Source: Margaritifera margaritifera
Taxonomy: Eukaryota > Mollusca > Bivalvia > Unionida > Margaritiferidae
Assembly: GCA_029931535.1 (NCBI GenBank)
Contig: JAQPZY010000514.1
Coordinates: 62,001-126,000, forward strand
DNA: 64,000 bases
Reading direction: 5' to 3'
This document shows positions 26,745-64,000 of the stretch, piece after piece. Both the position numbers and the translations under genes were made by a program. The notes under the pieces are model-generated. The model did no database searches. It worked only from the letters and a program-made list of their open reading frames with translations, and was not told the DNA's origin. The stretch's first letter is position 1. Every line of letters starts with the position of its first letter.

Positions 26745-27337
26745 ACCGACCAAAGGCAGGTACTGACAGCGCTGAGGTGAGTCTTTATACTTGCCATTCG
26801 TGAAGCATCACACCGCAACATAAACACTTGACACTATCACCTTCTCCTAAGTAGACAAATCCAGATCTGGCTAAAGCTTTAGGATAGGGTCTTCCAGATA
26901 TTCAGGCCACTTATCTTGGAACGTCTGGAATCGACTTTCAAATGCGCAATAGTCAGGCAAAAACACAGGCAACGAGCATCTTTTGTCAAAGTAGGGCTGG
27001 CATCCGCAGGTAGGTACACGCTTAGCATCCCAATAAAGAAGAAAGGGCGTTGTGCATCGCTAGTGGGGATGTAAGGCACACGAACGGCATCGCTTTCGAG
27101 GGTGCCAGAGGAGGAGCGACAAGGTCGTGCTGCATCGCTGATGTCAACGCGTACGGCATCCGTCTCGTCGCAAGGTACCGCATCGCACTCCATGTCGTGA
27201 TTGCACTTGGAGTCCACAGTAGGTTCCTCGCTCGGTGGCTGTGTCGAGTTCGTTAGCATAGGTTCTTGTGTACTGGTCTCTGCATTGAAGTTCACAGTGA
27301 GGTCCTCACTCGGTGGGTGGGTGACATGAGTAGTCAT
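26745..27337 (-). pseudogene. BIR-domain (IAP-like) gene, copy 1, degenerate
   Basis: The N-terminal frame (26879-27337) starts MTTHVTHPPSEDLTVNFN and is acidic, with repeated DAVRV units. The BIR that follows is shifted out of frame and eroded: FQTFQDKWPEYLED and the RCQYLPL end are readable, but the zinc-ligand part has lost its frame and some residues. See 49420-50186 for the better copy. Confidence 0.65.
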
Positions 27338-27371
27338 CTTCTTCTTCTTCTTGCTCGGTCAACGTTTGGAG

Positions 27372-30300: not shown

Positions 30301-30854
30301 CAATGCACGTGTTTTTCAGGAAAGCATGGCGTGGAAACTAAACAGCCCCGACATCTCTCTCCGCAATGCATGTGTTGCCCCCGACTGTTAAATCCTTGCT
30401 CGCATTTCTCACAGTAGTAAGAGTATCCAAGAAATCCTGTGATACTCGTTATGGCATCGAAATGTTCTTGATGATAATACACGTGAATGTATTTTCCTTC
30501 GGGGAAATCGGGTCCTCGAAACAGCAGAAGTCCGCGAACTTCTTGAGGGTGTACTTTCAAAGTGTACCGAGGAGCCAAGACGTCTTGAAGTTGTTGCATT
30601 TGAGAAATGCCACACGCGGTCTATTTTGGTATGCCTGCTTGTTGTAACAGGAGTTCTGCTTCTTTTCGTTGTTGGGGTCTATCCGATCGTCGAATGTTCT
30701 TCCATGCTCTTTTCCACTCTGAGGTCTCGTTCTTGTCGGCATACGTTCGCCCCACCACGATGGTCGGGCCAAGCACATCTTGTCCTGAGAATTGTCGATT
30801 TGGACGACACTGTGTTTGGTAATCACAGTTTAAGACACCAATAACATAGACCAC
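27372..30854 (-). pseudogene. Protein-primed-type DNA polymerase B (polB1), copy 1
   Basis: A Polinton/adintovirus-type polB is split over several frames. Minus-strand order: a Cys/His-rich N-terminal region (CEKCEQGFNSRGQHMHC, 30.4 kb); Exo I FFDFECMQETG (about 30,030); Exo II AHNFSGYDGQF (about 29,750); Exo III YCRSDVDIL (about 29,386); motif A IEVCSLYPW (about 28,711); motif B KVMLNCLCGKIAQR (about 28,140-28,100); motif C YFDTDSCMYIH (about 27,847); and the C-terminal VYQKRVRLPDHTTLP. Motif A has Glu where the catalytic Asp is expected. Frameshifts at Exo III and after KVKGLTLNY are shared with copy 2. A stop near 28,180 (in KVEKKEG region) is private. The 5' end is lost by a 905-bp deletion near 30,820. 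Confidence 0.88.
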
Positions 30855-32662
30855 TTGGCAACTGGTGCATACTCTTCATATAGGGGCATTTGCTACTGTG
30901 AATCCTTAGCATTATGTGCTGCATAGAGTGTGGATTTATACTTGTCCATTACGTCCAAACTTCAAACGTTGCTGACGAATAAGCCTCAGAATTTAAAAAT
31001 GTATTCCTTGTACACGCATCAATCTCTATGATCTCACCAATATTTATTCAATTCTAAGTAACCTCTTTTGATTTATTTTGTCCGCACATATGCAGACAGT
31101 ACCAGTAACTGATCCTATTTAATGGCTATAGGGCTAATTAAAAATCTGATTCACTCCTTCATTATTACCATAAATTAGCTTGGTCGGGTATACAATTTAT
31201 TGTTTCAAGCACACTCTGTAGATACGATGCACAACACGGTATGAAAACACAGTACAGGGCAATCGAATTATTTTCACCAAGAGTCAAATGTTTTGAGTCA
31301 AAAGAGTCAACATAACTATTTCTGCTTAGTTCGGTCAATTATCGAAACCCAATATTCAACGAAAATACATGCTATGAATTCAATACTTATCTCGTTGAAT
31401 CAATGTTCGTGGATGGTGTGTTGGCTACAAAACATGAATTTATTGCCTTCAAAAACAATAACTTTTTTGTGTGAAAAGTATAACCCAATCCACAGCCCAC
31501 AAATTAAAGTACCGACCAAACTATCATTTTTTTAAAAAAAACACGAATATTCATGCTCATGAAATTAAATGAAATCATTATATATGTTTTTATTCTATAT
31601 AGCATCAGCTTAACATTTACATTAATGTGTAATATAATTGGTGATGAAGTCAATAAATATCTGTGTAAAGACATCGTCTCTGCCAAGGACGTTTATGTCA
31701 CAAGCTCAACCATCAGTCGATGGTAAGTGTTAGAATTTGCATCAATATCCGCCGTAATTTTACCTAAGTATGATCTCATTCAGACTATTTTAAATATCTC
31801 AACAAAGCATATAACGATCTTTAAATTACGTCATCAAAATGGCAATATCTTACTTCCAATAAAGTATGGAATGAACGAAAGACTAGACGAAAAAAATTCT
31901 GCAAGCTAGAAAGTTAATTATCTAAAAGGAAAAAGTTAAATGAAAATATAAAAGCTCTTACAATTTTATTAGCAAAGAACAAACATGAAATCTGTACAAT
32001 TATGTGCACAATCTTTGATATAAAATTACTAATATCTTTGAGTAAATTCACATATTAATATTTCTTTCCAACATTACACACTCATGAAATGATTCTTGTA
32101 TTTACACGAAGCGTATGTTGCAATCATTATTTATACAAATCTTATCTTCCTTTTCATTACATTTAGACGTTTAGGACAGAAGGGTCGGGTGGATTATGCA
32201 AATCAACATTGTATGAGTCTATATGTAATTTGCCTTTAGGTGCAACTACAACATACTCTAAGACTATTTCATTTGCGATAAGATACAGTGAAAATATACT
32301 ACTTGCAGATCTATTTGATTTGCCTTAAGATTGAGGTGAAACACAATATATCTAAATCTATGTAACTTGTCCTAGGATGCAAGTAAAAATGGCGGCAAAG
32401 GAACACTGGATTTTGTAATTCAAGATTTTGCAAACTTGAAAAATGACACTCTCTTCCTATTTAACTGTGATTGACATTAAAAACACCATGCCTTACTTAA
32501 CAGTTTTTATCAGACATGGCATTGTTTAATCTTCAACATTACAAAATTATACGTGTGCCTTACAAAACAAAAAAAAGAAAATATGTCTATTTTCAATTAG
32601 AAACGTTTTTCAGCACGAAAAAGATGTAAGAAAGACAAAAAGAGAGATATGTTGTTATATCT

Positions 32663-32670
32663 GGACACAC

Positions 32671-32721
<51 letters not shown>

Positions 32722-32722
32722 A
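32663..32722. repeat. (AC)n-(AT)n microsatellite, copy 1
   Basis: The counterpart is at 56,491-56,572, where the AT part is longer. Confidence 0.95.
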
Positions 32723-33271
32723 CATCCAAAGGAAAAATAAATAAGTAAAATAGATACCTCTGGAACAGACGACCGCTAACGAGCTTAAAAGCATCAACAA
32801 AACGATGTGATTTATTATTGTTAGACTTTTTATTCAACCTCTCTTCTTGGCTTTACCACAACCTATGGGTCACATTGGAACCCTTATTTATATAATTTAT
32901 ATATTTATCCTTTTATCATAGACATCAAGAAAATCAGAAATGTGGTATGCCAAGCCTCGGGATACTTGGAAGATAAGTATATCTTAGGACTTTGATCTAT
33001 ATGTCTGGACAATAAGTGTGTCCCGATTACATAAGGGTACCCTAAATATCATACAACTTTAATGTGGCATGAGTTAGATGTCCTGGGGATTTGTATGCAG
33101 GCATATACAAGTAAAGATATAAGCATCATTAACAGCACAACTGTACATGTTAATGCAAAATAATTGCCAAAGACTGCGCCATGAGAAAGTTAATTTGTCG
33201 AAGGGTATGTTTTGAAACTGTGAATTAGGAGAATCTAGTCTTGCTTATGAGAATTAGAGGACGTAAATGGT

Positions 33272-33275
<4 letters not shown>

Positions 33276-33316
<41 letters not shown>
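33276..33316. repeat. (TA)n microsatellite, copy 1
   Basis: About 19 TA units; the counterpart at 57,123-57,182 has about 29. Confidence 0.95.
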
Positions 33317-33318
<2 letters not shown>

Positions 33319-34644
33319 GCGAGCGCCACGGGGAAATGTTACACACGTGCATTTGATGTCATATCAAGATACCGTCACGATATAACTTGGACATATTTAT
33401 CTGTTCCACTGAACCATTGCAAGCCATGACTTGTGCGAAATAATTTTCTTACTTTGGCAATATTTAAAGAAAAAAATATTTAACGACTTGCTCGAAAACA
33501 CTTGAAGATTTTACCATTTCAGTTTAAAACTAATTTGCTATATGTTTTGTTTTTTTTGTTTGTTTTTTTAGTGCTGTCACACTTTACACCATTTTAGTCT
33601 GAAAACATGCAGCTCTAAATAAAAAATTAAAAGTAAAAAGACTGCTGATCATTTATATTTTGTTACCTTGATTTGACAAAATCAGCAATGCTGCTGTCAT
33701 GTTCCTGAATAGCTCAGTCGATAAGCAGAGGAAACGAGAATATAACAGATACTAAATTTGGCATTCAATTTAAGATGCTATATTTGTTTCACCGTTGAAA
33801 ATATAATATGTGTAATTGTGTTACTGCGGCAGTATTTTTTATAAAACAGTACGACAGCACTCTTTGGTGTTTTTTTTCAAAAATTGTCTTTGTATTTAAC
33901 AAATCAATGTTGTGAACTTCATAATTGCGAATCTAACGTTTAACGAAATTCGCAAATTTTACTTTCAACAATTTAACGTCTTAATTGTAATAAACAACAC
34001 ATACTTATATCTCACACATAATTTAGTTTTCTCTCCATCTGGCTAGATTCACTCAGATTTTTCTTACATAAAAGAAAGATATATTTACTACCACATGATT
34101 TTTGTTCCCACTTTGACTTAGGTAATATTGAGATTTGTAACAGAAATAAAACAAGAACATATCAAAGAATATTTAACTTAATATTGTTTTTATTATTATT
34201 CATCTTCTTTTCCTTTATAGACAGATGCAACATAAAGGGTTGAACGCTTCACGCTGTATATGTTGCCTCCTCAGAATTCATTAAATTTATGTAAAAACGT
34301 ACAAACAAATTAGCCTAATGTTCAGTCATAGTGATTGTTTTAAATCTTGATGTTTCAAATAGTCCATTTAACTATGTTTGAAAGAAATGGAATGATTGAA
34401 GAAACATCGCGTTGTTGATGATGGTTATTATGATGATTGTAACAATAATAAATACATAAACAAATAAATAAATAAATACTTAAGTTTTCTGGATAATAAA
34501 TCTTACTGTATATATCACAGACATCACTTAAATCTTGGTATAACGTGGATTGAATTGAATGAGGGGGTACACATGTCTTTTAAGACAAACTGATCCCTGT
34601 CGTCTTTTTTTTAAAATAGGAAATGACGTCCTAACATGCATCGT

Positions 34645-34711
34645 GGGTCGCAATAGCTCAGTTGGAATAGCATCTGACTCGTAATCCAAGGGACGTGGGT
34701 TGGGTGTGTCC
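34645..34711 (+). other. tRNA-like sequence (Thr-CGT-like), copy 1
   Basis: GCAATAGCTCAGTTGG matches a tRNA D-arm/A box, and CTGACTCGTAATC matches an anticodon arm with CGT. The T-arm is degenerate (GGGTTGGGTG instead of GGTTCGAATC), so this is a tRNA pseudogene or a SINE head. Confidence 0.5.
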
Positions 34712-34740
34712 TTCAGAAGGGTACGTGGTCCTCATTTCTT

Positions 34741-34741
34741 A

Positions 34742-34793
<52 letters not shown>
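34741..34793. repeat. (AT)n microsatellite, copy 1
   Basis: Directly downstream of the tRNA-like sequence. Confidence 0.95.
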
Positions 34794-34939
34794 CGTGTTG
34801 CGAGTGCTATTACAAACATCCAAGCATGAACGATCCAACTATAAGCATGCATTTACCTTCACCAAAAATATCATATGGTTCTCTTTCTTATGGCGTGTTA
34901 AACGTAGCATAATTCAATAAAATCAATTGATATACAATA

Positions 34940-35290
34940 AATTTAATTTATATTCCGCAATTTTTCAGTTTCTATTCGATATTTCCTATTTGAAGATAAG
35001 AATTATCTTTTATATGCGATATTTTGCATTCATAGCCGATGTTGCTCATTCATATTCTATACATTATATTCATATGCTATATTTTACATTCAATTCGATA
35101 TTTTCAATTTAAATGGAATATGTGTCATTTGTATTCAATACTAATCTTTTCTGTAAATGATAATGTTCATTTACATTCAATGTTATTCATTTATATTGAA
35201 TAATTTATATTCATATCCGATATTTTGCATTCATATCCGATATTTACCATTTGTATACAATATTAGCTTGTATTCATATTCAGCGATTTA
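34940..35290. repeat. Degenerate AT-rich array of ~20-bp units, copy 1
   Basis: Variants of ATTCATATCCGATATTTTGC recur about fifteen times with substitutions and small indels. The same array is at about 58,825-59,165. Confidence 0.65.
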
Positions 35291-36704
35291 TTTTCTGTGT
35301 AAACTAGTGTCACCTCTCTGGTAAATGAAGATTTGTGGGTAATTTTATAGATAATTCGGTTTCCAGAAGCCATGTGCACGATGTAATGATAGTTTGCTCA
35401 TGGCTCCAGGGCATATAAATAAGTCAACACATGGCACAGAAAATGGATTGAGCAGATCTTGTTGTTACAGTTAAACAGGGCGACCTGGCTAAAATATCAA
35501 CAAAATCCGAGAATGTGCAGGTGACCGTGACCAATAAAAATGACGTGTTTGATCAAGATTCTTTGCTCTCTGCTAAAATTATGCTTTTCTCGTTTGACTG
35601 ATTGTATTGGTCATTAAGTTACAAATTGACTGTAATAAACAACGCCATACGGGAATGCCCCGTGTGTAACTTGTATGGAGGAGAGCAAGAGGGCACCTTT
35701 TACCTAGGTAATGGGGTAACTCTAACAAAAACGGTCGGCGATTGAGGTATGCAAGGCCACTTATTAACCCTACAGTACAATATATGTGTCAACAGACATC
35801 TTAAGTTCACCCTGAACCGCAAATCTGGGATCTAGCAATCGGATTGGATAAACTCCTAATTTCAACCAAGCAGATACCCCGATTCCATATTTGAAGTTAA
35901 GGATATTTAGAGAAAAGTTAGTCAGCCTTGCTGTAGATTTACAAAGTTACAGTATTGGCCAGACTGGCTCTCACCGCTTTGCAGCCCTTAATTAGTATTA
36001 TCTATACAAGTTTGAAGTATATGATAAAATATTTACTCATACCGGACACTTAAGAACGTGTATATACGCTGGAGGTGGTGGTGTAGCACTTAGTTAGCAC
36101 ACTGGCCTCTATTTTCAGAGCTTTCGGGTTTTAACCTTAGTGGAGGTGAGAACTTGTACCTCCCTAAGCATATTTAGGTGGAGCATTGACATGTTAAAAT
36201 TCTTATTGACATAATAAAGTTAATAGACCTACAGTACTGTATAAAATCAAACACGTTGTTTTCATGGGATGACTTCTTGCTGAGGATGCAGATTCACCAC
36301 ATGGGTTCTGGAAACGGACATTTTCTTTTTAAATTATCAGTCATTTATCAGACAAGTTACATTAAAACATATATCAGATTGGAGGAAAACTATTAGCAGT
36401 CATGGGTTTGGAGCGTTACGACTAGAGGGTTTGTGTAATGATAAACCCTGTAATTTCTCTTTTGTGTGTTGATATCTATCTTAAATATTGTATTTGAAGC
36501 AGTGGCCTAGCAACCGTCGAAGCAACCCCGCAACTTGTTTTATTGGACCCATAGTTATTTATTTATTTATTTTTTTTTTGCCGGGGGGGGGGGGATCTCT
36601 TGGAGGTGAGACACAATCTTCTTGATTCGGGGAAAACTTGTAAACATATGATCTTAAATAGCCGGGAAAAGTTGGTAAAGTTGGGATGCTGAAACAGTTA
36701 GGAC

Positions 36705-36867
36705 GCACTACCTAACGTCCGATATAGACACTGCCCCAGCTGTTGCAGGGCGTTAGAAGGTTACTGGTAGACACATGACCTAGGTAAGTCTGAAATCCGT
36801 CTCCGAAATCCGTTCACACTAGAGACCGGGTGCATGTAGATTAGCGATTCCGATATGTTCCTTGTCT
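36705..36867 (+). repeat. Left inverted repeat of the polB2 element, copy 1
   Basis: The sequence from GCACTACCTAACGTCCGATA to CCGATATGTTCCTTGTCT is found inverted at 42754-42882. The first 93 bases match at about 84% by eye, with one 34-bp length difference after that. It sits just outside the coding remnants of the second element. Confidence 0.75.
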
Positions 36868-37156
36868 AGCGATATAGTATAAACAATGGATCTAAATGCT
36901 ATCTTTGAAAATTCTGTGTGTGCACATCAGATGAAACAAAAGTCAGAAATAAAAGTCAGAAGAATGGTTATCTACGATGCCAACCATGGTAGATGGCACT
37001 GAGTTGGCCACATTTTTTGGTATCTGCCCATATGGATCGCCAGAAGAAAACAGTTTGGCCTTTGGGGAATGTTATTTGAGCCCGTATTCAGAAATTATAT
37101 CGAGATCACTACAGGTGAGAAAGTCATGAGCAACGTCACCTAGATCCGAAAAATAT

Positions 37157-37760
37157 ATGGATTCAGATACAAATCAGGACAGCTACATAGCAGACGGCAA
37201 TAAAAGTTTGCTTCTGGAATTCAAGTGTCCCTTATTAAGATATGTCCGCAAGCTGACTGATTATTATTTGCCACAAGTACTGTCCGGCCTTGAGCTTTCT
37301 GTCATAGCATCATACGGTCTCCTTGTCGACACGAGTTTTCGAAAGTGTTCGCTAAGCCAACTTGGATTCTATCAGGAATATGACACAAAATTCACAACAG
37401 AGACTACGGCGGATATGAGAAGGATCCAATTGCGATAGCCATCATATCATTCTTTGGCGGCTAGGGTGATTTCACTGACCTAGGCGAATCTACCGAAGCA
37501 GAATTATTATTGTTCCTGAAGAAAGATCTGCATAAAGAACACAGCTACGTTATCGCAATCATTCAAGACCAGCCTGACTGTATTTCTGACTGATGATATC
37601 ACCAGGAAGTATCCAGAAGGAAAGCTAGTTGCCGTCTTGCATTGGACATTGTTTAAAATTACCTACAATTATATTGCTCGCGTGCAAGGTTATGACAAAA
37701 CAACCAAGAGCGCCATATCAAATTTGCGACAAATTGTATCTGAATTTACCACAGTAATAT
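37157..37760 (+). pseudogene. Unidentified gene of the polB2 element, copy 1
   Basis: An ATG-started frame of 93 residues (37157-37438) reads YVRKLTDYYLPQVLSGLELS and FYQEYDTKFTTETTADMRR. After a stop, coding-like sequence resumes in another frame at about 37,573-37,760 (ITRKYPEGKLVAVLHWTLFK). The disablements are shared with the copy at 60,902, so they predate the duplication. Family not recognised. Confidence 0.4.
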
Positions 37761-37761
37761 A

Positions 37762-38061
37762 ATGTACAAATTTGACTCAGAACGAATACTGGCAGCGTAC
37801 GAGCGCGCATACAACTTTAAAGTAACATTGCCCACAGGCTGGAATATAGAAGATGTCAGTTGGATGGTACAAGAAATAAGATCGTTGAATGCCGCATATA
37901 AATTTATCAAGGACGCTCTTAAATTTTTTTATCACACATCAAAAGAACATCTTGATCACTTTGATTTTCAAGCTACGATTGCTATTGAGCTAGAAAGATC
38001 AAGACGCATACTAGGAGAAGAACTAAGCCTTAGATTAGTCAGCATTTGTTTTTCACCGTAG
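37762..38061 (+). CDS. Unidentified 99-residue ORF, copy 1
   Basis: The frame reads SERILAAYERAYNFKVTLPT, WNIEDVSWMVQEIRSLNAAY and SKEHLDHFDFQATIAIELER. It looks helical and charged. It is intact in both copies (61,507-61,806), with mostly conservative or single-base differences, and follows the preceding remnant directly. No family recognised. Confidence 0.4.
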   Translation: MYKFDSERILAAYERAYNFKVTLPTGWNIEDVSWMVQEIRSLNAAYKFIKDALKFFYHTSKEHLDHFDFQATIAIELERSRRILGEELSLRLVSICFSP

Positions 38062-38529
38062 TTTAGAAAACCACCATTGCTTTTACCCTCAATGGAACGC
38101 TATTATTTTGAAAGCTGCGGTGATGATATTTATTTTTCATATATTTTTTCGTATTTTCCAACGCACATTGGACTTAGTTCGACAACCATATTGTCTACAA
38201 TCCTGAATTCTTTCACCAAGTCCGTCATGTAGAATGTAGCACCACGAAAGCAAGTCTTAATCTGATATAGGAATATTTTTGGTTCGTGATGTAAACGTAT
38301 TTGCACATAGCTTGTTTATTCTAATTTTCGTTCTCAGATTTGCTGAAGTCGGCATGTGTTACAATGCCAGCATCAGAAATAATCAGAAAATATGGATTTA
38401 AAAAATGTGTTACTACTGGCAATACATCAAGTGCTTAACGCTATCGGACTTGCTGACAACAAAAACAACAAGCGCTTATAATATCTGTAGGATCTTTTGA
38501 AACAGTAAGTCCATTTGACATATTTGGTA

Positions 38530-38768
38530 GTATACAATAAGTACTTCGAACTGTTCTTTTATGAATTATATAATATCTCGCACAGTAGATAATATGTATT
38601 TACTGTTCAGGTGCGGCTTTTCTGCTTCAAGCTGTGGCTCATGTTGTGTCTTTTCTGCTTGAGGTTGTGGCTGCTCGGGTTGTGGCTGCATCTTTTCTAA
38701 TTCTGGTTGTGGTGCGGATCATCAGACAAATATTTTCCATTGTATTTGTTATCAGGCAGTGCCATCAC
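38530..38768 (-). pseudogene. Pro/Gln/Glu-repeat ORF, copy 1, frameshifted
   Basis: The minus strand matches the intact frame at 62275-62517, which has PQPQ/PQPE repeats. A one-base deletion in the GGCTGCGG stretch near 38,714 breaks it in this copy. Confidence 0.4.
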
Positions 38769-39037
38769 TTAAATAATTGTTTCTACGTTTTCATTATCCA
38801 AAACAATTTATTTGTAACAATAGCGCTTGTCGGCTTGTTAGTTGCTTTTAATGTTGTTGTTGTTGTTGTGTTTTGCAAAATTTGATTGCACATATATGCC
38901 TAGTCAGCACATAGTTCTATTGTTTCTCCTTCATTAAATTTTCTGCGTTCTATTTTCTTGGTTTGAATCACTATTCTTAAGGTTAATATGTTTTCAAAGA
39001 CCACTCATATGTTTCTATCAGCGCTGGCTGATTCATT

Positions 39038-41380
39038 TTGTCATTGCAGAACTTTATTAGCTTGTCATATTTGTCTCATACGTCAAGATATAATCCTCTA
39101 CGTGGCAAATTATATCTGGAGCAACTTGCAAGACTCAAAGCTAATCAGAGGTACATCAAAGTTCAGAATAAGTATTACAAGTGTTTTATGTGGGCTTTGT
39201 TATCTGCCTTGTATACTGTACCAAAAGATCCTAATAGAGTTAGCAAATATGCTCTGTATCAAAGCACGTTAAATGTTTTGTCGAACACGTTAGAGACTGC
39301 GCCAATGTTGCAAAATCTATTATGCCTTATAAAAATAATAACACGGAAAAATTTGAAAACGTTTCTGGTATGACAAAGGTGTCCTTTATTATATACACTG
39401 ATTTTGAATCACTGTTCCTACCTTAGGCACAGATTACTATCCAAATACATTTTCTACGAGAAAATATCAGGACCACGTTCCTTGTGGCTATGCTTATAAC
39501 GTCATCTGCGTCAATAATGAGTTAAGCAAGCCCACACAATTATAGCGCGGATTAAACATTTTATACAGAGCTTGCTAGGCGAAGTAGATTATATAAATCG
39601 CATTCCACCAGCAAATATAATTTGTGATGTGGAAGACCGAGAAAACTCTGCGTCTTCTACATCATGTTGGATATGCAAGCAGAAACTTGGAGATAACAAA
39701 GTTCACGATCAATGTCACTGCAATGGACACTAGCGTGGAGCAGCTCATAATAAATGCAACCTGCGACTGAAGGCGCCAGAGTTTATTCTAGTGGTTTTTC
39801 ATAATTTGCGAGGCTATGACTCTCATCTCATCGTAAAAAAGGGAAAATGCGACAAGAAGATAACGTGCATATCAAACAACCTAGATAAATACTTGTCGTT
39901 CTCCGTGGACGAACTGCGTTTTATTGACAGCCTGCAATTCATGAACACTTCACTTAAGAAGTTAGTCAAGACCGCAAGCGTATTTAGATATTTTGCAGAG
40001 GAATAACAACGAGACATTCTGTTGCCAACAATAAATACTTGCCAGAATCCGAGAAAGCGTCTGGAAACAAAATATATCACATAGCACTGTTCAAATATTC
40101 TTTATCAATGGGCCATGTCATAGAAGCTGCCCGTTGGCGATTTTTCTTTTTCACAGAAAAAAATATTACATGGTGATGATAACACAGGCTACATTTTGGA
40201 GGTCGATCTAGAATATCATGGTGAGCTACATGAAGCGTATAATAACTATCCTTTGGCGCCAGAAAGTATCATTGCAGACGACGCAAAAAAGCACTTATTC
40301 AACAACGCTTAAGAAGAAACTTGGCGTCAAAAACTTCAATGTGTTCCAAAGCTGATTCCGAATCTGATGGATAAGACGCGCTGTGTCCCTCATTACAAAA
40401 ATCTGAAGCAGTTTCTTCGTCTGGGAAAGGGGTTGATTGAAATTCACTGTGTCGTAAAATTTAGACATGATGCTTGGCTAAAGACTTTTATTGATTTCAG
40501 CACAACGAAACGATCGTCTGCGATAAAATAATTCGAACTAGATTTTTTTAAAAGTTGATTAACAATTCTGAATATGGTAAAGTCACGGAAAACATACGGA
40601 AGCGAGTCAACAAGAGCTTGTAAACCATGTGGTGCGGTGTGATAAATTGGTTGCCGATCCTGGCTTCATCTCTGTGAAACATTTTGATTACAACTTAGGA
40701 AAACGACGCACCTAAAATTAAACACGCCTATCGATTTTGGGATTGACGTGCTCGAGCTTTCTAAGTTGCTTATGAACGATTTTCATTACAATGTGGTCAA
40801 AGCAAATGTGGCGACAGGACCAAGGTTTTGCTAGCTAATGCTGATTCGCTTTGCTATGAAATTACTGCAGAAAATATTTATGACGGTATACTCGTGATGA
40901 GAGATCAATTTGATTTTCCTAGTTGCTCTCGAGAAGAAAGCAACCCACTCAGCAATCATCAAGAAGATTATTGCAATATTCAAGGAAGAGAACATGGCAA
41001 CCATAGCAGAGATTATAGCACTGAGATCCAAAATGTATTTGCTGAAGTTGCTGGGCCAATCACAAAGTCGTCAAAGATGTTATCACATATGATGATTACT
41101 TGGCAGCGCTATCTGCAGAAAACCACTATGCTAGGATGAAGACGTTCAAAATCAAACTATCACATTCTAAATGCTGTCGTGCTAAATAAAATTGGTCTAT
41201 GATGATGAAAGGTTCATCTTGGACGATTGCGTTAGCACGCGAGCCCATGGCCACTACGGAAACAAAGAAGCAGATATTCTAGCGCCAGATGTTTTTGAGG
41301 AACTGAACTTAATATGATCAACAACAAAAAAAGACGAAACAAATTATTTACAAAATATTACTAAAAAAACTATTTGTGAA
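39038..41380 (+). pseudogene. DNA polymerase B of a second type (polB2), copy 1
   Basis: This is a decayed viral/organellar-type polB, different from polB1. Order: N-terminal YNPLRGKLYLEQL...CFMWALLSALYTVPKDPNRVS (39.1-39.3 kb); an endonuclease-VII-like zinc site SCWICKQKL...HDQCHCNGH...CNLRLK (39.65-39.78 kb); exonuclease VVFHNLRGYDSHLI (39.8 kb); palm motif A GYILEVDLEYHGELH (40.2 kb); NYPLAPES; KLIPNLMDKTRCVPHYKNL (40.35 kb); motif B region with NNSEYGK equivalents (40.55 kb); motif C region LLANADSLCYEI (40.85 kb), where DTDS has become NADS; and the end AHGHYGNKEADILAPDVFEE (41.25 kb). Many stops and shifts. Confidence 0.85.
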
Positions 41381-41559
41381 GCCTAGGCGAAATTAAAGCT
41401 GTAACGCGCGTTGTTCACTTTTGAAAAGGTTGTATTTATCGTGCCAATGCAGCACATCTGTATTGATTGACTGTTAGCGCCTAAGATTGTTCCGACTTGA
41501 ATCATGGAAGCAAATCGCTCTTGCTTCTGCGTTTCTAAATTTGTCGCCTGCACTGGACG

Positions 41560-41822
41560 TTGTCTTGCCATCTTGCGTTTTCCGGTGCCACCTCGTTTGC
41601 AATTTCCTTAGGTGTAACATCCTTGAAATGTTATCTTTATTTGTTAGATCTTATTCCATTCATGTGCTCCAGGACGTGAACTTCTGGGATAATACCATGA
41701 TTACTTTCGTAATCAAAACGATGTGCCAGCATGCTCTTTTGCGCAACGCCAACACCTGATTCCCTAACTATAATGCAGCCATTGTTCATTGGCTGGTTAG
41801 CGATCAGGCGCTTACGTTGCAC
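41560..41822 (-). pseudogene. HNH endonuclease remnant A
   Basis: Minus-strand sequence AHRFDYESNHGIIPEVHVLE and HMNGIRSNK, then after one TAA KDVTPKEIANE, follows the HNH_3-type pattern (aromatic-rich HRF-YE, HG-IP, (D/E)H-NG-(x)SDN, NL--VTxxEN). The lead Asp of DH is Glu here. It is convergent to polB2. Function as a nicking or homing-type endonuclease is inferred from the family only. Confidence 0.5.
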
Positions 41823-41934
41823 GTGCCGTATCTCGCCAAGCTAATTTGACTAGTAATTGTCGTAGACAGGATGCATACGCCGGGCGGCCATTATATAGTA
41901 TAATATTGTGTCAATCTGAACGTTTGATGTCGCC

Positions 41935-42020
41935 AAGCAAAGGAAAAGATAAATAAGTAAATAAATAAATAAATACATTAATAAATAAATAAGTAAATAA
42001 AATAGAATAAAATAAAAAGG
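41935..42020. repeat. AAATA-type microsatellite
   Basis: Imperfect (AAATA)n/(AATA)n run. Confidence 0.85.
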
Positions 42021-42199
42021 AAGGCAATACAACAACACATTGTACAACCTCCGGCGAATGAAAAAGAAAACTAACAATCGCGAATTGGAGGGTAAGATTT
42101 ATCTTTTACCCCATTGCATCGGAACAATACAGAACAACGGCTGGTGCCAAGTATGTTCTCTACTTTGCACATTTAACTAAAACAATTCTTCTTCGCCAG

Positions 42200-42480
42200 A
42201 AATGATGTTGGTCGTCAACACAGGACGGACTATGTTGTATGCTTACCTACTTCACCACGCAGGTTGTTTGTCTTGCTTGATACGGCTTCTAAATATTTGA
42301 TTTTGTTTTCTGATTTGTCGCCGTTGATGGGGTCGATTATAATACCTTTCGGCATTGGACCGTGATGGCACTCGAAAATAAACATGTATGCGCTCAATAC
42401 TTTTGAAATCTGCCTATGCTGGAGACAGCAATGAGCACCGAGCCGTTGTTTTTCGGATTCTTTGTAAGAATATTATGACG
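42200..42480 (-). pseudogene. HNH endonuclease remnant B
   Basis: On the minus strand: YMFIFECHHGPMPKGIIID then PINGDKSENKIKYLEAVSSK and TNN. This is the HNH_3 core (HG-IP-G--IDHINGDK-DN-I-NLE-V---TNN) with Pro in place of the DH histidine. Upstream frames remain open for some 60 bp. It is a separate copy from remnant A and lies between it and the right inverted repeat. Confidence 0.55.
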
Positions 42481-42753
42481 CAAGATATGCTGACATCGCC
42501 GTCCTGATTGTCCTCATTGGCCTCGCATAGGTGGTAGGCTGGCTAATCTTTCCAAACCATGATGTATCAGTATATTTCTCTCTCTTATTGTACATTTTTT
42601 GTAAACGCTGATATAGACATCATATATATATCAACTTTCAGAAGGCGGCTATTGGCAACACTAATATGAGATCAAATGCGCGCGAAACAATCTTTTTGCA
42701 AAATCCCAGTCTAGGACCGGATGCTAGCCCTCTTAATCTTTTAGTTCCTCAGC

Positions 42754-42882
42754 AGATAAGGAACATATCGGCATTGCTAGTGTGAGGCTGATTTCAGACT
42801 TATCTAAGTCATGTGTCTACCCGTAATCTTCTAACTTCTTGCCACCGCTGGGGCCGTGTCCACATCGGATGTTAGACAGTGC
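42754..42882 (-). repeat. Right inverted repeat of the polB2 element
   Basis: Reverse complement of the left repeat at 36705-36867. Conserved blocks include GTAGACACATGAC, TAAGTCTGAAATC and CCGATATGTTCCTT. It lacks a 34-bp stretch present on the left. Confidence 0.75.
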
Positions 42883-43059
42883 CTCATAGATGTTTCTTAA
42901 TCCTATGAATTGACTCCAGCCCAAATGTCACGACATAGTTGCCAACCCCGTGAAACACCAGAACTTTCAACAGCTATATATACATAGTCTTCAATTTGTG
43001 TATAAATAGGTATATACTACGTTTGCAAGCTTGTGGTCAGGTAAATTTGCATATTTGTG

Positions 43060-45390
43060 TGTAGCTAAAATAGATTTGCAAATCAGGGAAGTAACTATTG
43101 TGTGCCTGCCATTCATTCAATTTTATTTTGCCCTGTTCTCCACTGCTCTTTGGGACTTTACAAAGACCAGGCCTGCCCACTCTTTGATATTGTCTTCCCA
43201 TCTCTTCTTCTGTCTGCCTCAATTTCTCTTTCCTCTCGCTGTGCCCTGTAGGATTGTCTTTGACAGGCCAGTTGAGTGTGAGACGTGACCATACCATCTT
43301 AGTTTGCGTTTCTTTACAGTGGTAAGCAGATCTTCATAAGGTCCAATTGCACCTTGGATTTTAGTGCTCACCTCCGCATTAGAGACGTGGTCTAAGTATG
43401 ACATTTTCAGGATCCTTCGATAACATCTCATCTCTAAGTCATGGATTCTTCTCTCTAATTCTGTTGTTAGGGTCCATATCTCACATGCATATAGGAATAT
43501 GGACATGACGAGGGAGCGCATAAGCTTGATCTTGGACCCAAGCGTGATGTTGCTGTCTTTCCAAATAGGCTTCAGCCTAGCCAGAGGAGCTGTTGTCTGC
43601 GCAATCCTGGAAACAACCTCAGGTTTTGAACCTTCATCAGAGGCAAAAGCACCTAGGTACTTGAAGTTTGTTACTGTTCTCAGCTTCTGCCCATTCACTA
43701 TCACGATCAGAGACTAGGTCCATGGGGTGGGCCAATCTCCTGTTTGCCAGATTTGGTTGCAGATTGTTGTGAGTTCCTCCTGCTTGAACAACTTCTGCTA
43801 GTATATTGTCTACCCCAGCTGACTTACCCTTCTTTAGTGCCTTTACATCAGCCTCTACTTTGTCCCTGAGGATCGGGTAGTCAACCTCTGTTGTGGTCAG
43901 CGGTACGTTTAGTACAGCTTGGTCTCCAGAAGTATCTTAGTTGTAAAGCTCAGAACAGTATTCCGTCCATCTGTTAAGAATGTCTTGGTTTTCTGTCAGA
44001 CTCTTACCAGCCTTGTTCTGAACATTATTAGATCTCCCCTGTTTCTCTGTTATCAGGTCTTTCACCAACTGGAATGCCCTTTTACTGTCATTCTGGTTCA
44101 GGCTTTTCTCGACTTCCTTGCATTGGTCCTCTAACTAGCTTTCTTTTGCTTTCTTTATGCTCTTCTTAATCCTGTTGTTAATCTCATTGTATTATTTTGC
44201 TCTTTTATGATCTCCTCACTTACTCCTCAGTTTTCTCCTCACATTGCAGAGGTCGAGGATATCTTCTGTGACCCAAGGCTTCTTTATTCTACGATGCTTG
44301 CCAAGGATCTCCCCGGCTGTGTCTATTACTGCCTTGTTGAAGGTGATGGTCAAGGAGTCTAGGTTTATTTCTTCATGTCCCAGAATTGTGAGTGGTGCAA
44401 ATGTGCCGCCTATTGATGTTTCAAATGCTTGTGTCACGCTTGGCTCTATAAGTTTTTCAAGTTCGAAGCTGATCCTAACTTGTCTTGGCTTATTGGTCTT
44501 CCTCAGACGAAGTTTAATAGTCATCATCATCAAGTCATGGTCGCTTCCTATATCAGCTCCTGGGAAGCTACGTGTTCTGGCAATCTTTACGCTAGACCGG
44601 AAGCGCTTTCTCACCAAGATGTAGTCAATCTGATTGTGATGTTTTACGTCTGGGGTGTGCCAAGTCCATCTTCTGGATAGCTTTTGGGGGCCAAGGGTGT
44701 TCGTTAGCACTAGGTTATTGTATGTTGCGAAGACCCGGAGCTTGAGTCCTCTCTCATTGGTCTGCTTATAACAGTATGGACAACATATTTCTCTTCAGTC
44801 TACTTGTGCGTCTACTCCTACCTTAGCATTCCAGTCTCCTTGAATAACCAGAATATCCTTCTTGGGTGTCTGGTCTATGAGAGTTTGAAGCTGGTCCAGT
44901 TCCTCGTCATCATGGTCAGATGTTGGGACATAGACCTGTATCATAGTGTTGTTAAAGGGAGATCCCCTCACGCGGATTTGTAATCATCCTGTTAGACACT
45001 GGTCGACAATACATGACTGCACTCACAATGTCCTTGTGTACCATAAATCCGATTCCATGTTCGTGCTTGTTCTCATGACCACTGAAGTAGATCCTGTGTC
45101 CGTCATCTGTTGATCTCTCTCCGAAATTTTTCCAGCGCATCTCGCAGAGTCCAAGGATGTGACATTGGTATCTTCCCATCTCATGGGTTAGCTCCTCTAG
45201 TTTCCCTGTTGATCTTAATGTCTTGACATTCCATGTTCCAATGGTGATATTATCTCGTACTTTGATGGTAGTTGCACCAGTAGCATACTTGTCACCTCCG
45301 TCCTGGTGTCCAGCGGATGGCGCGGTCATTGGTAACCCGGGCTGCAACCGATCCGGTATGTGAAATCTATTTATTGTCATTTCGTCATCA
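43060..45390 (-). mobile_element. LINE retrotransposon (APE endonuclease/RT), internally deleted
   Basis: The minus strand carries a non-LTR element. The 5' part (44952-45380) has the endonuclease: GTWNVKTLRSTGKLEELTHE, LGLCEMRWKNFGE, GIGFMVHKDIVSAV. The middle (44216-44710) has WTWHTPDVKHHNQIDYILVR and SDHDL, the C-terminal endonuclease active site, then a linker. At about 43,740 the RT palm core is missing, deleted between KALKKGKSAGVDN and SDRDS. The 3' part (43219-43704) has the RT tail: FKYLGAFASDEGSKPEVVSR, LYACEIWTLTTELERRI, RKLRWYGHVSHS. The relation to RTE-like or craniofacial-development-protein-2-like ORFs is from memory of the family. Confidence 0.87.
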
Positions 45391-49062: not shown

Positions 49063-49169
49063 CAAACTAGTCATTCACAGGCACGTCTTTCTTTGTGACC
49101 AAATAGTCACACACTTGCCAAACGGAATCGGTTGGTAAAGGATATCCAAGATGTTCAGTGATGACCTTA

Positions 49170-49439
49170 CTACACCTCAAACGGTGTCAAGTCGTTTCGT
49201 CTTGAGATGAAATTTTTTTTGTATTCCTGTAAGTTTGTCACTTTTTTTTCCTCAACGTCGTTCCATGGAATTCTGTGTATCACTCCCACATTGTAGGTAA
49301 AAGCCGTGACATCCAAAATCTTACAGGACCAATTTCCTATTTGATCAATGTCTGACCATTTAAACAACTTGGCACTAATCAATAATTTGATAGCATTTAG
49401 GTACCACTGGTTAAAACGTTTATGTCGTAAAGGATGCAA
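49170..49439 (-). pseudogene. Unidentified FNQWYLNAIKLL-type gene, copy 2
   Basis: Same gene as 26334-26729: HKRFNQWYLNAIKLLISAKL, GNWSCKILDVTAFTYNVGVI, WNDVEEKKVTNLQEY. It loses the frame earlier (ISRRNDLTPFEV). Its 5' end runs into the BIR gene with a small overlap. Confidence 0.5.
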
Positions 49440-50186
49440 TTTGTTCTTTGCGTTTCACTTGAATCTGAACCAGCTCTCTGTAAATGCGTTCTCGCAGCTC
49501 CGGAGATAAACAACGAATGGGCTCTTTTAAAGTATCCGACATGGGTTGCTTCTTTGGACCGAACAAAGGCAGGTACTGACAGCGCTGAGACCATCTGGCA
49601 TGAATCAAGTAAGATGAGTCTTTATACTCCCATTCGTGAAGCGTCACACCGCAACTGAAACACTTGACTTTATCACCTTCTCCCAAGTAGACAAATCCAG
49701 ATCTGGCTAAAGCTTTAGGAGTAGGGCCTTCCAGATATTTAGGCCACTTATCTTGGAACGTCTGGAATTGACTTTCAAAGTCGCAATAGTCAGGCAAAGC
49801 AACAGGCAGCGTGCATTGTTTGTCAAAGTAGGGCTGGAATCCGCAAATAGGTACACGCTTAGCATCCCAATAAAGAAGAAAGGGCGTTGTGCATCGCTAG
49901 TGGGGCGGTAAGGCACACGAACGGCATCGCTTTCGAGGGTGCCAGAGGAGGAGCGACAAGGTCGTGCTGCATCGCTGATGTCAACGCGTACGGCATCCGT
50001 CTCGTCGCAAGGTACCGCATCGCACTCCATGTCGTGATTGCACTTGGAGTCCACAGTAGGTTCCTCGCTCGGTGGCTGTTTCGAGTTCGCTAGCATAGGT
50101 TCTTGTGTACTGGTCTCTGCATTGAAGTTCACATTGAAGTTGACAGTGAGTTCCTCACTAGGTGGGTGGGTGACATGAGTATTCAT
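49420..50186 (-). pseudogene. BIR-domain (inhibitor-of-apoptosis-like) gene, copy 2
   Basis: The BIR at about 49,770-49,558 is complete: FQTFQDKWP, LARSGFVYLGEGDKVKCFSC, GVTLHEWEYKDSSYLIHARW, RCQYLPLFG. Zinc ligands follow the canonical C-x2-C-x16-H-x6-C spacing and the GEGDKV turn is present. BIR domains bind caspases or their regulators; viral IAPs block host apoptosis. Upstream an acidic, repeated N-terminal segment (49707-50186; MNTHVTHPPSEELTVNFN) is joined by a frameshift or a missed intron near 49,800-49,870. Downstream is LSPELRERIYRELVQIQVKR. No RING is visible. It lies directly 3' of polB1 on the same strand, as part of the element's gene cluster, so it was probably cargo of the virus-like element rather than a host neighbour. 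Confidence 0.8.
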
Positions 50187-50254
50187 CTTCTTTTTCTTGC
50201 TCGGTCAACGTTTGGAGTCACAATGAATGGTTGGGCTTGGAAGTTGTCCCTTTT

Positions 50255-55282: not shown

Positions 55283-55283
55283 C

Positions 55284-59165: not shown

Positions 59166-60590
59166 ATTTATTTTCTGTGTAAACTAGTGTCACCTCTCTG
59201 GTAAATGAAGATTTGTGGGTAATTTTATAGATAATTCGGTTTCCAGAAGCCATGTGCACGATGTAATGATAGTTTGCTCATGGCTCCAGGGCATATAAAT
59301 AAGTCAACATATGGCACAGAAAATGGATTGAGCAGATCTTGTTGTTACAGTTTAACAGAGCGACCAGGTTAAAATATCAACAAAATCCGGGAATGTGCAG
59401 GTGACCGTGACCAATAAAAATGACGTGTTTGATCAAGATTCTTTGCTCTCTGTGAAAATTATGCTTTTGTCGTTTGACTGATTTTATTGGTCATTAAGTT
59501 ACAAATTGACAGTAAAAAACAACGCCACACGGGAATGCCCCGTGTGTAACTTGTATAGAGGGGAGTAAGAGGGCAACTTTTACCTAGGTAATGGGGTAAC
59601 TCTTACAAAAACGGTCGGCGATTGAGGTATGCAAGGCCACTTATTAACCCTACAGTACAATATATGTGTCAACAGCAATCTTAAGTTCACCCTGAACCGC
59701 TCGCTAATCTGGAATCTAGCAATCGGATTGGATAAACTCCTAATTTCAACCAAGCAGATAGCGCGATTCCATATTTGAAGTTAAGGATATTTAGAGAAAC
59801 GTTAGTCAGCCTTGCTGTAGATTTACAAAGTAGCAGTATTGACCAGACTGGCTCTCACCGCTTTGCAGCCCTTAATTAGAATTATCTATACAAGTTTGAA
59901 GTATATGATAAAATATTTACTCATACCGGACACTTAAGAACGTGTATATACGCTGGAGGTGGTGGTGTAGCACTTAGTTAGCACACTGGCCTCTATTTTC
60001 AGAGCTTTCGGGTTGTAACCTTAGTGGAGGTGAGAACTTGTACCTCCCTAAGCATATTTAGGTGGAGCATTTACATGTTAAAATTCTTATTGACATAATA
60101 AAGTTAAAGACCTACAGTACTGTATAAAATCAAACACGTTGTTTTCATGGGATGACTTCTTGCTGAGGATGCAGATTCACCACATGGGTTCTGGAAGCGG
60201 ACATTTTCTTTTTAAATTATCAGTCATTTATCAGACAAGTTACATTAAAACGTATATCAGATTGGAGGAAAACTATTAGCAGTCATGGGTTTGGAGCGTT
60301 ACGACTAGAGGATTTGTGTAATGATAAACCCTGTAATTTCTCTTTTGTGTGTTGATATCTATCTTAAATATTGTATTTGAAGCAGTGGCCTAGCAACCGT
60401 CGAAGCAACCCCGCAACTTGTTTTATTGGACCCATAGTTATTTATTTATTTATTTTTTTGCCGGGGGGGGGGGGGGGAGGGATCTCTTGGAGGTGAGACA
60501 CAATCTTTTGCTTCTGGGAAAACTTGTAAAGATATGATCTTAAATAGCCGGGAAAAGTTGGTAAAGTTGGGATGCTGAAACAGTTAGGAC

Positions 60591-60753
60591 GCACTACCTA
60601 ACGTCCGATATAGACACGGCCCCAGCTGTTGCAGGGAGTTAGAAGGTTACTGGTAGACACATTACCTAGGTAAGTCTGAAATCCGTCTCCGAAATCCGTT
60701 CACACTAGAGACCGGGTGCATGTAGATTAGCGATTCTGATATGTTCCTTGTCT
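60591..60753 (+). repeat. Left inverted repeat of the polB2 element, copy 2
   Basis: Counterpart of 36705-36867. The right partner for this copy would lie beyond the window. Confidence 0.75.
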
Positions 60754-60901
60754 AACGATATAGTATAAACAATGGATCTAAATGCTATCTTTGAAAGTTT
60801 GGCCTTTGGGGAATGTTATTTGAGCCCGTATTCAGAAATTATATCGAGATCACTACAGGCGAGAAAGCCATGAGCAACGTCACCTAGATCCGAAAAAATA
60901 G

Positions 60902-61505
60902 ATGGATTCAGATACAAATCAGGACAGCTACATGGCAGACGGCAATACAAGTTTGCTTCTGGAATTCACGTGTCCCTTAATAAGATATGTCTGCAAGCTG
61001 ACTGATTATTATTTGCCACAAGTACTGTCCGGCCTTGAGCTTTCTGTCATAGCATCATACGGTCTCCTTGTCAACACGACTTTTCGAAAGTGTTCGCTAA
61101 GCCAATTTGGATTCTATCAGGAATATGACACAAAATTCACAACAGAGACTACGGCAGATATGAGAAGGATCCAATTGCGATAGCCATCATATGATTCTTT
61201 GGCGGCTAGGGTGATTTCACTGACCTAGGCGAATCTACCGAAGCAGAATTAATATTGTTCCTGAAGAAAGATCTGCATAAAGAACACAGCTACGTTATCT
61301 CAATCATTCAAGACCAGCCTGACTTTATTTCTGATTGATGATATCACCAGGAAGTATCCTGAGGGAAAGCTAGTTGCCGTCTTGCTTTGGAAATTGTTTA
61401 AAATTACCTACAATTATATTGCTCGCGTGTAAGGTTATGACAAAACAACCAAGAGCTCCATATCAAATTTGCGACAAATTGTATCTGAATTTACCACAGT
61501 AATAT
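60902..61505 (+). pseudogene. Unidentified gene of the polB2 element, copy 2
   Basis: Same as 37157-37760: a 93-residue frame (YVCKLTDYYLPQVLSGLELS) with the same stop position, then coding-like sequence in a shifted frame. This copy has one further stop in the second part (near 61,430). Confidence 0.4.
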
Positions 61506-61506
61506 A

Positions 61507-61806
61507 ATGTACAAATCTGACTCAGAACGAATACTGGCAGAGTACGAGCGCGCATACAACTCTAAAGTAACATTGCCCACAGGCTGGAATATAGAAGATG
61601 TCAGTTGGATGGTACAAGAAATAAGATCGTTGAATGCCGCATATACATTTATCAAGGACGCTCTTAAATTTTTTTATCACACATCAAAAGAACATCTTGA
61701 TCACTTTGATTTCAAAGCTACGATTGCTATTGAGCTAGAAAGATCAAGACGCATACTAGGAGAAGAATTAAGCGTTAGATTAGTCAGCATTTGTTTTTCA
61801 GCGTAG
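61507..61806 (+). CDS. Unidentified 99-residue ORF, copy 2
   Basis: Same as 37762-38061, also open to the same stop (SERILAEYERAYNSKVTLPT). A frame kept open in both copies beside broken neighbours is worth noting but may be chance over 300 bp. Confidence 0.4.
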   Translation: MYKSDSERILAEYERAYNSKVTLPTGWNIEDVSWMVQEIRSLNAAYTFIKDALKFFYHTSKEHLDHFDFKATIAIELERSRRILGEELSVRLVSICFSA

Positions 61807-62274
61807 TTTAGGAAACCACCAATGCTTTTACCCTCAATGCCATCGCTATTATTTTGAAAGCTGCGGTGATGATATTTATTTTTCATATATTTTTTCGTAT
61901 TTTCCAACGCACATTGGACTTAGTTCGACAACCATATTGTCTGCAAACCTGAATTCTTTCGCCAAGTCCGTCATGTTGAATGTAGCACCACGAAAGCAAG
62001 TCTTAATCTAATATAGGAATTTTTTTTGTTCGTGATGTAAACGTATTTCCAGATAGCTTGTTTATTCTGATTTTCGTTCTCAGATTTTCTGAAGTCGGCT
62101 TGTGCTGCAATGCCAGCACCAGAAATAATCAGAAAATATGGATTTAAAAAATGTGTTACTACTGGCAACACATCAAGTGCTTAACGCGATCGGAATTGCT
62201 GACAACAAAAACAACAAGCGCTTATAATATCTGTAGGATCTTTTGAAACAGTAAGTCCATTTGTTATAATTGCA

Positions 62275-62514
62275 TTAGTATACAATAAGTACTTCAAGTT
62301 TTTCTTTTATGAATTCAATAATATCTCGCACCGTAGATAATATGTATTTACTGTTCAGGTGCGTCTTTTCTGCTTCAGGCTGTGGCTCATGTTGTGTCTT
62401 TTCTGCTTGAGGTTGTGGCTGCTCGGGTTGTGGCTGCATCTTTTCTAATTCTGGTTGTGGCTGCGGATCATCAGACAGATATTTTCCACCGTATTTGTTA
62501 TCAGGCAGTGCCAT
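62275..62514 (-). CDS. Pro/Gln/Glu-repeat ORF, copy 2, intact
   Basis: The frame runs from ATG at 62514 and reads MALPDNKYGGKYLSDD, then PQPQ/EKTQ-type repeats (PQPEQPQPQAEKTQHEPQPE), then STVRDIIEFIKEKLEVLIVY. A low-complexity middle with a helical C-terminus. It lies between the unidentified genes and polB2, on the opposite strand. Copy 1 is frameshifted by one base. Function unknown. Confidence 0.45.
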   Translation of the reverse strand: MALPDNKYGGKYLSDDPQPQPELEKMQPQPEQPQPQAEKTQHEPQPEAEKTHLNSKYILSTVRDIIEFIKEKLEVLIVY

Positions 62515-62786
62515 CACTTAAATAATTGTTTCTACGTTTTCATTATCCAAAACAATTTCTCTGTAACAATAGCGCTTGTCGATTTGTTAGTTGCTTTTAA
62601 TGTTGTTGTTGTTGTTGTTTTTTGCAAAATTTGATTGTACATATATGCGTAGTCAGCTCATAGTTCTATTGTTTCTCCTTCATTAAATTTTCTGCGTTCT
62701 ATTTTCTTGGTTTGAATCACTATTCTTAAGTTTAATATGTTTTCAAAGAGCACTCATATGTTTCTATCAGCGCTGGCTGATTCCTT

Positions 62787-64000
62787 TTGTCATTGCAGAA
62801 CTTTATTAGCTTTCCATATTTGTCTCATACGTCAAGATATAATCCTCTACGTGGCAAATTATATCTAGAGCAACTTGCAAAACTCAAAGCTAATCAGAGC
62901 TACATCAAAATTCAGAATAAGTATTACAAGTGTTTTATGTGGGCTTTGTTATCTGCCTTGTATACTGTACCAAAAGATACTAATAGAGTTAGCAAATATA
63001 CTCTGTATCAAAGCACGTTAAATGTTTTGTCGAACACGTTAGAGACTGCGCCAATGTTGCAAAATCTATTATGCCTTATAAAAATAATAACATGGAAAAT
63101 TTGAAAACGTTTCTGGTATGACAAAGGTGTCCTTTATTATATACACTGATTTTGAATCACTGTTCCTACCTTAGGCACAGATAGCTATCCAAATACATTT
63201 TCTACGAGAAAATATCAGGACCACGTTCCTTGTGGCTATGCTTATAAAGTCATCTGTGTCAATAATGAGTTAAGCAAGCCCACACAATTATAGCGCGGAT
63301 TAAACATTTTATACAGAGCTTGCTAGGCGAAGTAGATTATATAAATCGCATTCCACCAACAAATATAATTTGTGATGTGGAAGACCGAGAAAACTTTGCG
63401 TCTTCTGCATCATGTTGGATATGCAAGCAGCCACTTGGAGATAACAAAGTTCACGATCAATGTCACTGCAATGGACACTAGCGTGGAGCAGCTCATAATA
63501 AATGCAACCTGCGACTGAAGGCACCAGAGTTTATTTTAGTGGTTGTTCATAATTTGCGAGGCTATGACTCTCATCTCATCGTAAAAAAAGGGAAAATTTG
63601 ACAAGAAGATAACGTGCATACCAAACAACCTAGATAAATACATGTCGTTCTCCGTGGACGAACTGCGTTATATTGACAGTCTGCAATTCATAAGCACTTC
63701 ACTTAAGAAGTTAGTCAAGACTGCAAGCGTATTTAGATATTTTGCAGAGTAATAACAACGCGATTTACTGTTGCCAGCAATAAATACTTGCCAGAATCCG
63801 AGAAAGCGCCTGGAAACAAAATATATCACATATCACTGTTCAAATATTCTTTATCAATGGGCCATGTCATAGAAGCTGCCCGTTGCCGATTTTTCTTTTT
63901 CACAGAAAAAAATATTACATGGTGATGATAACACAGGCTACATTTTGGAGGTCGGTCTAGAATATCATGGTGAGCTACATGAAGCGTATAATAACTATCC
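62787..64000 (+). pseudogene. DNA polymerase B of the second type (polB2), copy 2, cut by the window
   Basis: N-terminal YNPLRGKLYLEQLAKLKANQ and CFMWALLSALYTV (62.8-63.0 kb), zinc site SCWICKQPLGDNKVHDQCHC (63.4 kb), exonuclease block VVHNLRGYDSHLI (63.55 kb), ending within motif A sequence. A one-base A-run insertion near 63,587 breaks the exonuclease frame only in this copy. Other stops are shared with copy 1. Confidence 0.83.

Follow-up and report, generated by a model that had tools for sequence, protein, structure and literature searches.

The compact polB element of a Margaritifera margaritifera contig: very probably a decayed, internally deleted Polinton copy

Introduction

The genome of the freshwater bivalve Margaritifera margaritifera contains, on contig JAQPZY010000514.1 (designated C472 below), a polB gene enclosed by inverted repeats, and the nature of this element is the question raised by the stretch of 64,000 nucleotides (positions 62,001 to 126,000 of the contig; hereafter the window) that is analysed here. 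A sequence-only reading of the window had described it as a compact unit of some 6.2 kb (positions 36,705 to 42,882 of the window) and had offered two interpretations, namely a distinct self-synthesising transposon resembling a linear invertron, or a Polinton that has suffered an internal deletion. Linear invertrons and bidnavirus-type PolB segments indeed carry a PolB gene between inverted repeats within about 6 kb. The evidence set out below makes it almost certain that the element is a decayed, internally deleted copy of a Polinton/Maverick of adintovirus-like type: the second interpretation is upheld by long relatives which share the repeats, while the first is contradicted by the host flanks of the short copies and by the state of their polB gene.

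Long relatives with the same terminal repeats

When the host genome (2.45 Gb) was searched with the left repeat (184 bp), 40 matches were scored out of 104 candidates. Two of these are the window's own, 16 more were fetched with their surroundings (20 stretches, representing 10 elements), 10 more were read for 3 kb inwards, and 12 were left unread. Paired repeats stand about 6.2 kb apart in the window and on contigs C1390 and C554, and 9.7 kb apart in a second copy on C472. The same repeat ends are also shared by long elements of 11-21 kb, five of which were fetched at both ends: the spacing is 11.3 kb in C530, 17.6 kb in C291, about 20.8 kb in C501 (which by eye contains reverse-transcriptase-like frames), 15.0 kb in C1041 and about 14.4 kb between repeat matches in C1587, the second ends of the latter two having been seen in the fetched DNA.

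Using tblastn, PolB and a PLA2-rve integrase were found in all five of these long relatives, as was a gene with an F5/8C-like product, while capsid and penton were each found in four (C530 lacking both) and an ATPase in four (all except C1041), so that capsid, penton and ATPase occur together in three of the five (C291, C1587 and C501). The query proteins were taken from C530, C291 and C718, and these elements accordingly match themselves; the penton is presumably what its name says, given its resemblance to known pentons and the gene order. Pfam matches above cut-off were obtained in the relatives for rve (E 3.9e-9, in C530) and HNH_3 (E 4.6e-11). Longer elements with these repeats, capsid and integrase are what the sequence-only reading had named as refuting a compact transposon, and their presence speaks against such a transposon. 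A bidnavirus-like segment had also been considered as a candidate and was dropped once the long relatives had been found.

A further possibility raised at the outset, that the repeats occur widely without polB2, did not hold in this sample: the 10 repeat matches that were read for 3 kb inwards revealed PolB in 6 and the end of the YqaJ gene (see below) in 3. Neither was seen in the remaining one (L038, C938:155201-158200), where a weak protease-like match (E 0.001) is the only one within the 3 kb.

Inverted repeats and Polinton signature

The inverted repeats themselves were described correctly as being about 84% identical over their first 93 bases, since positions 36705-36797 and 42882-42790 agree at 78 of 93; a longer gap-free match (36684-36803 with 42784-42903) has 96 of 120 bases identical. 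When the window was compared with itself by BLAST the repeat obtained an E-value of 4.5e-24, and it is therefore not due to chance. Positions 36705 and 42882, in contrast to what had been suggested, are not the termini of the element, as similarity to the terminal repeat of C1041 (about 650 bp) goes beyond both (Table 1). Aligned with the C1041 repeat, the two arms of the window copy reach scores of 107 and 190, compared with 26 and 29 as the best among 60 shuffles; the inner limit of the right arm (42701) coincides with the edge of the region that was compared. In the flanks of the window copy, comparison with the C1041 repeat reveals nothing recognisable of the outer part of either terminal repeat; in the C554 copy the right outer repeat is better preserved and can be followed to position 200 of that of C1041.

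In C1041 the left and right terminal repeats are 82% identical over 680 alignment columns, including a tract of TA repeats. Both ends begin with AGT (AGTAGT and AGTCGT), and the hexamer GCCCTA lies outside both, forming a 6-bp target duplication; together, these ends and this duplication constitute a Polinton signature. Three of 10 other ends, one each of C501, C1587 and C718, reach the first base of the C1041 repeat, and all three read AGTAGT. In vertebrate Mavericks, 6-bp target duplications and ends of the form (AGT)2 have been reported (PMC8097293).

In terms of gene content, the long relatives resemble Polintons/Mavericks by their PolB2, rve integrase, double jelly-roll (DJR)-type capsid, penton, A32-type ATPase and possible adenovirus-type protease. 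They differ in that the family also has a YqaJ exonuclease, HNH genes and a PLA2 domain beside the integrase, and the window copy differs further by lacking both the centre and the ends. A comparable combination, of adenovirus-like replicase and virion genes with a retrovirus-like integrase, is described for adintoviruses (Adintoviridae) in another study (PMC11071296). The PolB of Adintoviridae would further be expected to have an N-terminal OTU-like domain; in the window copy the 5' part of polB is deleted. Linear invertrons and bidnavirus-type segments differ in that the short size of the present element would be the product of deletion, its long relatives having capsid and integrase.

Several observations weigh against this assignment. 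Some of the Pfam matches in the relatives fall below cut-off (DJR-like capsid, E 6.8e-4; Pox_A32 ATPase, E 1.3e-3; PLA2, E 4.8e-3), and the protease matches are weak, consisting of C5 and C48 Pfam matches (E 0.068 and 0.036) in a single frame of C530 and a tblastn match in C530 with E 0.006. Gene content also varies: YqaJ was found in C530, C291 and C1041, and in C501 by its end only, but not in C1587, while HNH matches were found in C1041, C1587 and C501 but not in C530 or C291. Two further elements were fetched at a single end: in C718, PolB, capsid, penton, YqaJ and HNH are present with no integrase match, and in C1478, YqaJ, ORF2 (one of the short genes of the window copy) and ATPase with no PolB or integrase match in 20 kb. 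Moreover, 7 of the 10 other ends stop short of the first base of the C1041 repeat, and the target duplication is seen in a single element, C1041, no clear right end having been recognised in C501 or C1587. Lastly, the long relatives are 63-83% identical depending on the stretch, mostly below 76%, and no close long relative was found, so that the deletion is sized against the diverged C1587.

Internal deletions and decay of polB

Deletion junctions were placed by tblastx against several relatives. On the left, similarity to C1587 runs to about 39091 of the window, and polB similarity begins at about 39061 (C1041 and C501) or 39187 (C1587). Between these points C1587 has about 8.0 kb which hold the F5/8C-like, ATPase, penton, capsid and integrase genes, and the main deletion also removes the 5' part of polB. 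Within polB two further blocks are missing, one of some 0.3 kb at 39274-39294 and the other, at around 40003, of some 0.4 kb. In agreement with this, the sequence-only reading had seen no capsid, protease, ATPase or integrase between the repeats, and none of these was found there when the relatives' proteins were searched by tblastn at E<=0.01 (capsid, penton, ATPase, F5/8C-like and integrase, and also protease) or when the frames were scanned with Pfam (capsid, penton, ATPase, integrase and protease).

The polB2 assignment proved sound, although the gene is a pseudogene. The piece at 39734-40003 has a Pfam DNA_pol_B_2 match with E 2.9e-4 and 20.3 bits (under the cut-off of 25.8) and 241 homologues at E<=1e-3 among 255 candidates, of which 120 were listed. 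When 39032-41776 is translated in a single frame, 34 stops are encountered, and what we take to be the DTDS motif of the relatives reads NADS in the window copy. As for the zinc site resembling endonuclease VII, homologues are annotated with PF02945, and Pfam matches were obtained on the loci L001 (E 1.3e-4) and L002 (E 2.4e-3), which supports the earlier proposal for the family; the corresponding window piece (39521-39730) has no Pfam match of its own. The PolB, exonuclease and HNH genes of the window copy are all broken.

Four loci in records filed as bacterial metagenome-assembled genomes (MAGs) also match the window PolB. Polinton-like polymerase genes with long frames are present in L001 (JANQFH010000027.1), L002 (CALZFZ010000048.1) and L003 (JAIXOF010000231.1); the match of L004 is confined to 22 residues at its edge. 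For L001 and L002, matches of the polymerase pieces to the window are spread along 39086-41251, both loci have an rve integrase alongside, and L002 also has PLA2 and Adeno_PX matches; the bacterial-MAG contigs L001-L003 look mis-binned. No relatives were found among viral contigs in scans with the PolB piece, the ORF1 piece (see below), a PolB alignment and the PolB of one relative.

One apparently dead copy multiplied with its host flanks

At least four copies of the short form exist (in the window, as the second copy on C472, on C1390 and on C554), and all four are surrounded on both sides by common host flanks covering at least 35125-43699 of the window; about 34.5k-43.9k of the window is also present on C1390 and C554. 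Within the window a direct duplication joins 26248-40251 with 49064-64000 at an offset of about 22.7-23.8 kb, its main pieces being 92-97% identical, and an alignment of the two window copies of the element, left flank included, shows 135 differences in 3708 positions. The second C472 copy has about 3.6 kb of extra DNA in polB (L013:5482-9038), located between the equivalents of 40729 and 40733 of the window. All short copies align unbroken across the deletion joints, and none was found with a whole polB. It follows from the shared flanks that the four copies descend, through segmental duplication, from one apparently dead copy. In addition, the arms within one copy differ by about 17-22% (with gaps counted in three copies) and the copies among themselves by about 4-9%, and this greater divergence of the arms points to insertion and deletion first and duplication later, an order which presumes that the arms were alike at insertion.

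These data bear directly on the view that the element is a distinct compact transposon or linear invertron of about 6.2 kb, equipped with polymerase and endonucleases only. This view has in its favour that three copies (window, C1390 and C554) are near-equal in length and that the gene set between the repeats looks like one for replication, yet it would call for independent insertions, whereas the four short copies with their shared flanks look like one insertion that has been duplicated, and for an intact polymerase, whereas the 5' part of polB is lost and the joints are common to all four copies. Furthermore, the repeats correspond to the interior of a long terminal repeat of Polinton type, and a compact transposon is thus hardly credible.

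A non-autonomous deletion derivative that is mobilised in trans by full-length Polintons, comparable to a miniature inverted-repeat transposable element (MITE), would be consistent with the persistence of the inner parts of both terminal repeats and with the abundance of related PolB genes in the same genome, where all 91 scored candidates match (of 21168 candidates) and several have open frames of more than 1100 amino acids. On the other hand, no short copy at an independent site, nor any sign of the short form moving as a 6.2-kb unit, was encountered among the pairs and copies examined, and the excess of arm divergence over copy divergence suggests that the copy was old before it multiplied; the outer repeats are moreover unrecognisable in the window copy, even if C554 keeps part of the right one. 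Mobilisation in trans is for these reasons very improbable.

The history of a decayed Polinton copy accommodates these data in the following manner. A family member, as pooled over the long relatives, comprises terminal repeats of about 650 bp, YqaJ, ORF2, a PQ-rich stretch, F5/8C-like, ATPase, penton, capsid, integrase, PolB and HNH genes. By analogy with the established Polinton model, in which the element is replicated by its own protein-primed PolB and inserted by the rve integrase with 6-bp target duplications, the family would move by the Polinton mechanism. The window copy has lost a centre of about 8.0 kb and two blocks of polB, its ends have eroded, and the decayed copy was then duplicated at least three times along with its host flanks. 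The short form appears to be dead. What the locus presents is an ordinary Polinton fate, that of an old, internally deleted and end-eroded copy carried by segmental duplication, and a candidate new class of transposons is thereby removed: an internally deleted Polinton with eroded outer repeats can mimic a compact invertron.

Table 1. Features of the element and its second copy in the window.
Feature	Position	Strand	Basis or remark
Left inverted repeat	36683..36867	+	C1041 terminal repeat positions 441-595 (inner part); outer ~440 bp unrecognisable
ORF1, predicted YqaJ-type exonuclease gene, broken	36947..37747	+	tblastn with relatives' pieces; matches across two reading frames
ORF2, 105 amino acids	37744..38058	+	tblastn matches in 8 relatives' stretches, 35-76% identical by piece
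Degraded stretch ending in PQ-rich frame (38569-38718)	38124..38718	-	Strand judged by eye from frames
Main deletion junction	39075..39091	.	~8.0 kb of relative C1587 missing in window copy
Endonuclease-VII-like/PolB2 DNA polymerase pseudogene	39061..41332	+	5' end lost, internal deletions, many stops/frameshifts
HNH_3 endonuclease remnant B	41386..41840	-	Pfam HNH_3 on 41640-41840, E 4.1e-4
HNH_3 endonuclease remnant A	42092..42472	-	Pfam HNH_3 on 42233-42472, E 5.9e-8
Right inverted repeat	42701..43016	-	C1041 terminal repeat positions 329-649; past 42882
Second copy of deleted element, left part	60570..64000	+	Passes window edge to C472:132228

Exonuclease and HNH genes of the family

Two genes of the window copy had been listed as unknown, and this description still fits ORF2, which has no known domain in Pfam and is conserved in relatives. 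Open reading frame 1 (ORF1), by contrast, is a putative YqaJ-type exonuclease gene, as judged from the sequences of its relatives. For the ORF1 piece of the window, searches of the protein database, PHROGs, PDB and Pfam gave no homologue, and the family is recognisable only through relatives, to whose YqaJ frames the window pieces align. Pfam YqaJ was matched in long frames of three relatives, covering positions 1-146 or 1-147 of the 150 of the profile; the best has E 1.8e-4 and 22.2 bits against a cut-off of 22.0, and the other two (E 6.6e-4 and 5.2e-3) lie below it. Pieces from further relatives matched the expected parts of the profile, some of them weakly, and some had no match. The second copy lacks 142 bp of ORF1 and its surroundings (36910-37051), and a YqaJ piece matches at no fewer than 150 places in the host genome (150 of 150 scored, from 684 candidates). 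Beyond ORF2, DNA similarity to long relatives was found at 38124-38563 and 38626-39077. The two HNH endonuclease remnants noticed earlier were confirmed by Pfam (Table 1).

The YqaJ exonuclease present in several long relatives is the mildly novel part of these findings. As far as the portion seen of the vertebrate Maverick study extends, YqaJ, HNH and PLA2 are not named among the conserved genes, and "exonuclease" occurs 0 times in the main text (PMC8097293). Homing-endonuclease domains within Polinton PolB have already been reported (PMC11071308), and no title on animal Polintons with YqaJ was met among the literature matches listed, which is not proof of its absence from print. According to a paper on mriyaviruses, YqaJ is encoded by many Nucleocytoviricota (PMC11253617), and its occurrence among animal Polintons would thus be relevant to the exchange of genes between these two phyla. 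It is possible, though somewhat doubtful, that the family represents a Polinton lineage with a recombination module of its own, having the YqaJ exonuclease at one end and the HNH endonucleases beside PolB at the other. If so, such a module could perform two-part strand resection and recombination while the linear DNA replicates, and it might make internal deletions, and exchanges between terminal repeats, more likely.

Neighbouring features

Other sequences resembling parts of mobile elements are found in the window outside the element. A second, different PolB2 pseudogene lies at 27635-30599 on the minus strand and is duplicated at 49.5-53.6k, with DNA_pol_B_2 matches in three pieces (E 5.1e-7, 8.6e-7 and 5.4e-3); at 22971-23267, on the same strand, a weak match to the L002 protease-like protein (E 0.002) is possibly part of this second PolB element. 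An rve integrase protein match (E 3e-6) at 3087-3713 on the minus strand presumably belongs, by its resemblance, to a long terminal repeat (LTR) retrotransposon type. Adjoining the element, the minus-strand frames at 43219-45380 resemble what we take to be a retrotransposon of the long interspersed nuclear element (LINE)/RTE type.

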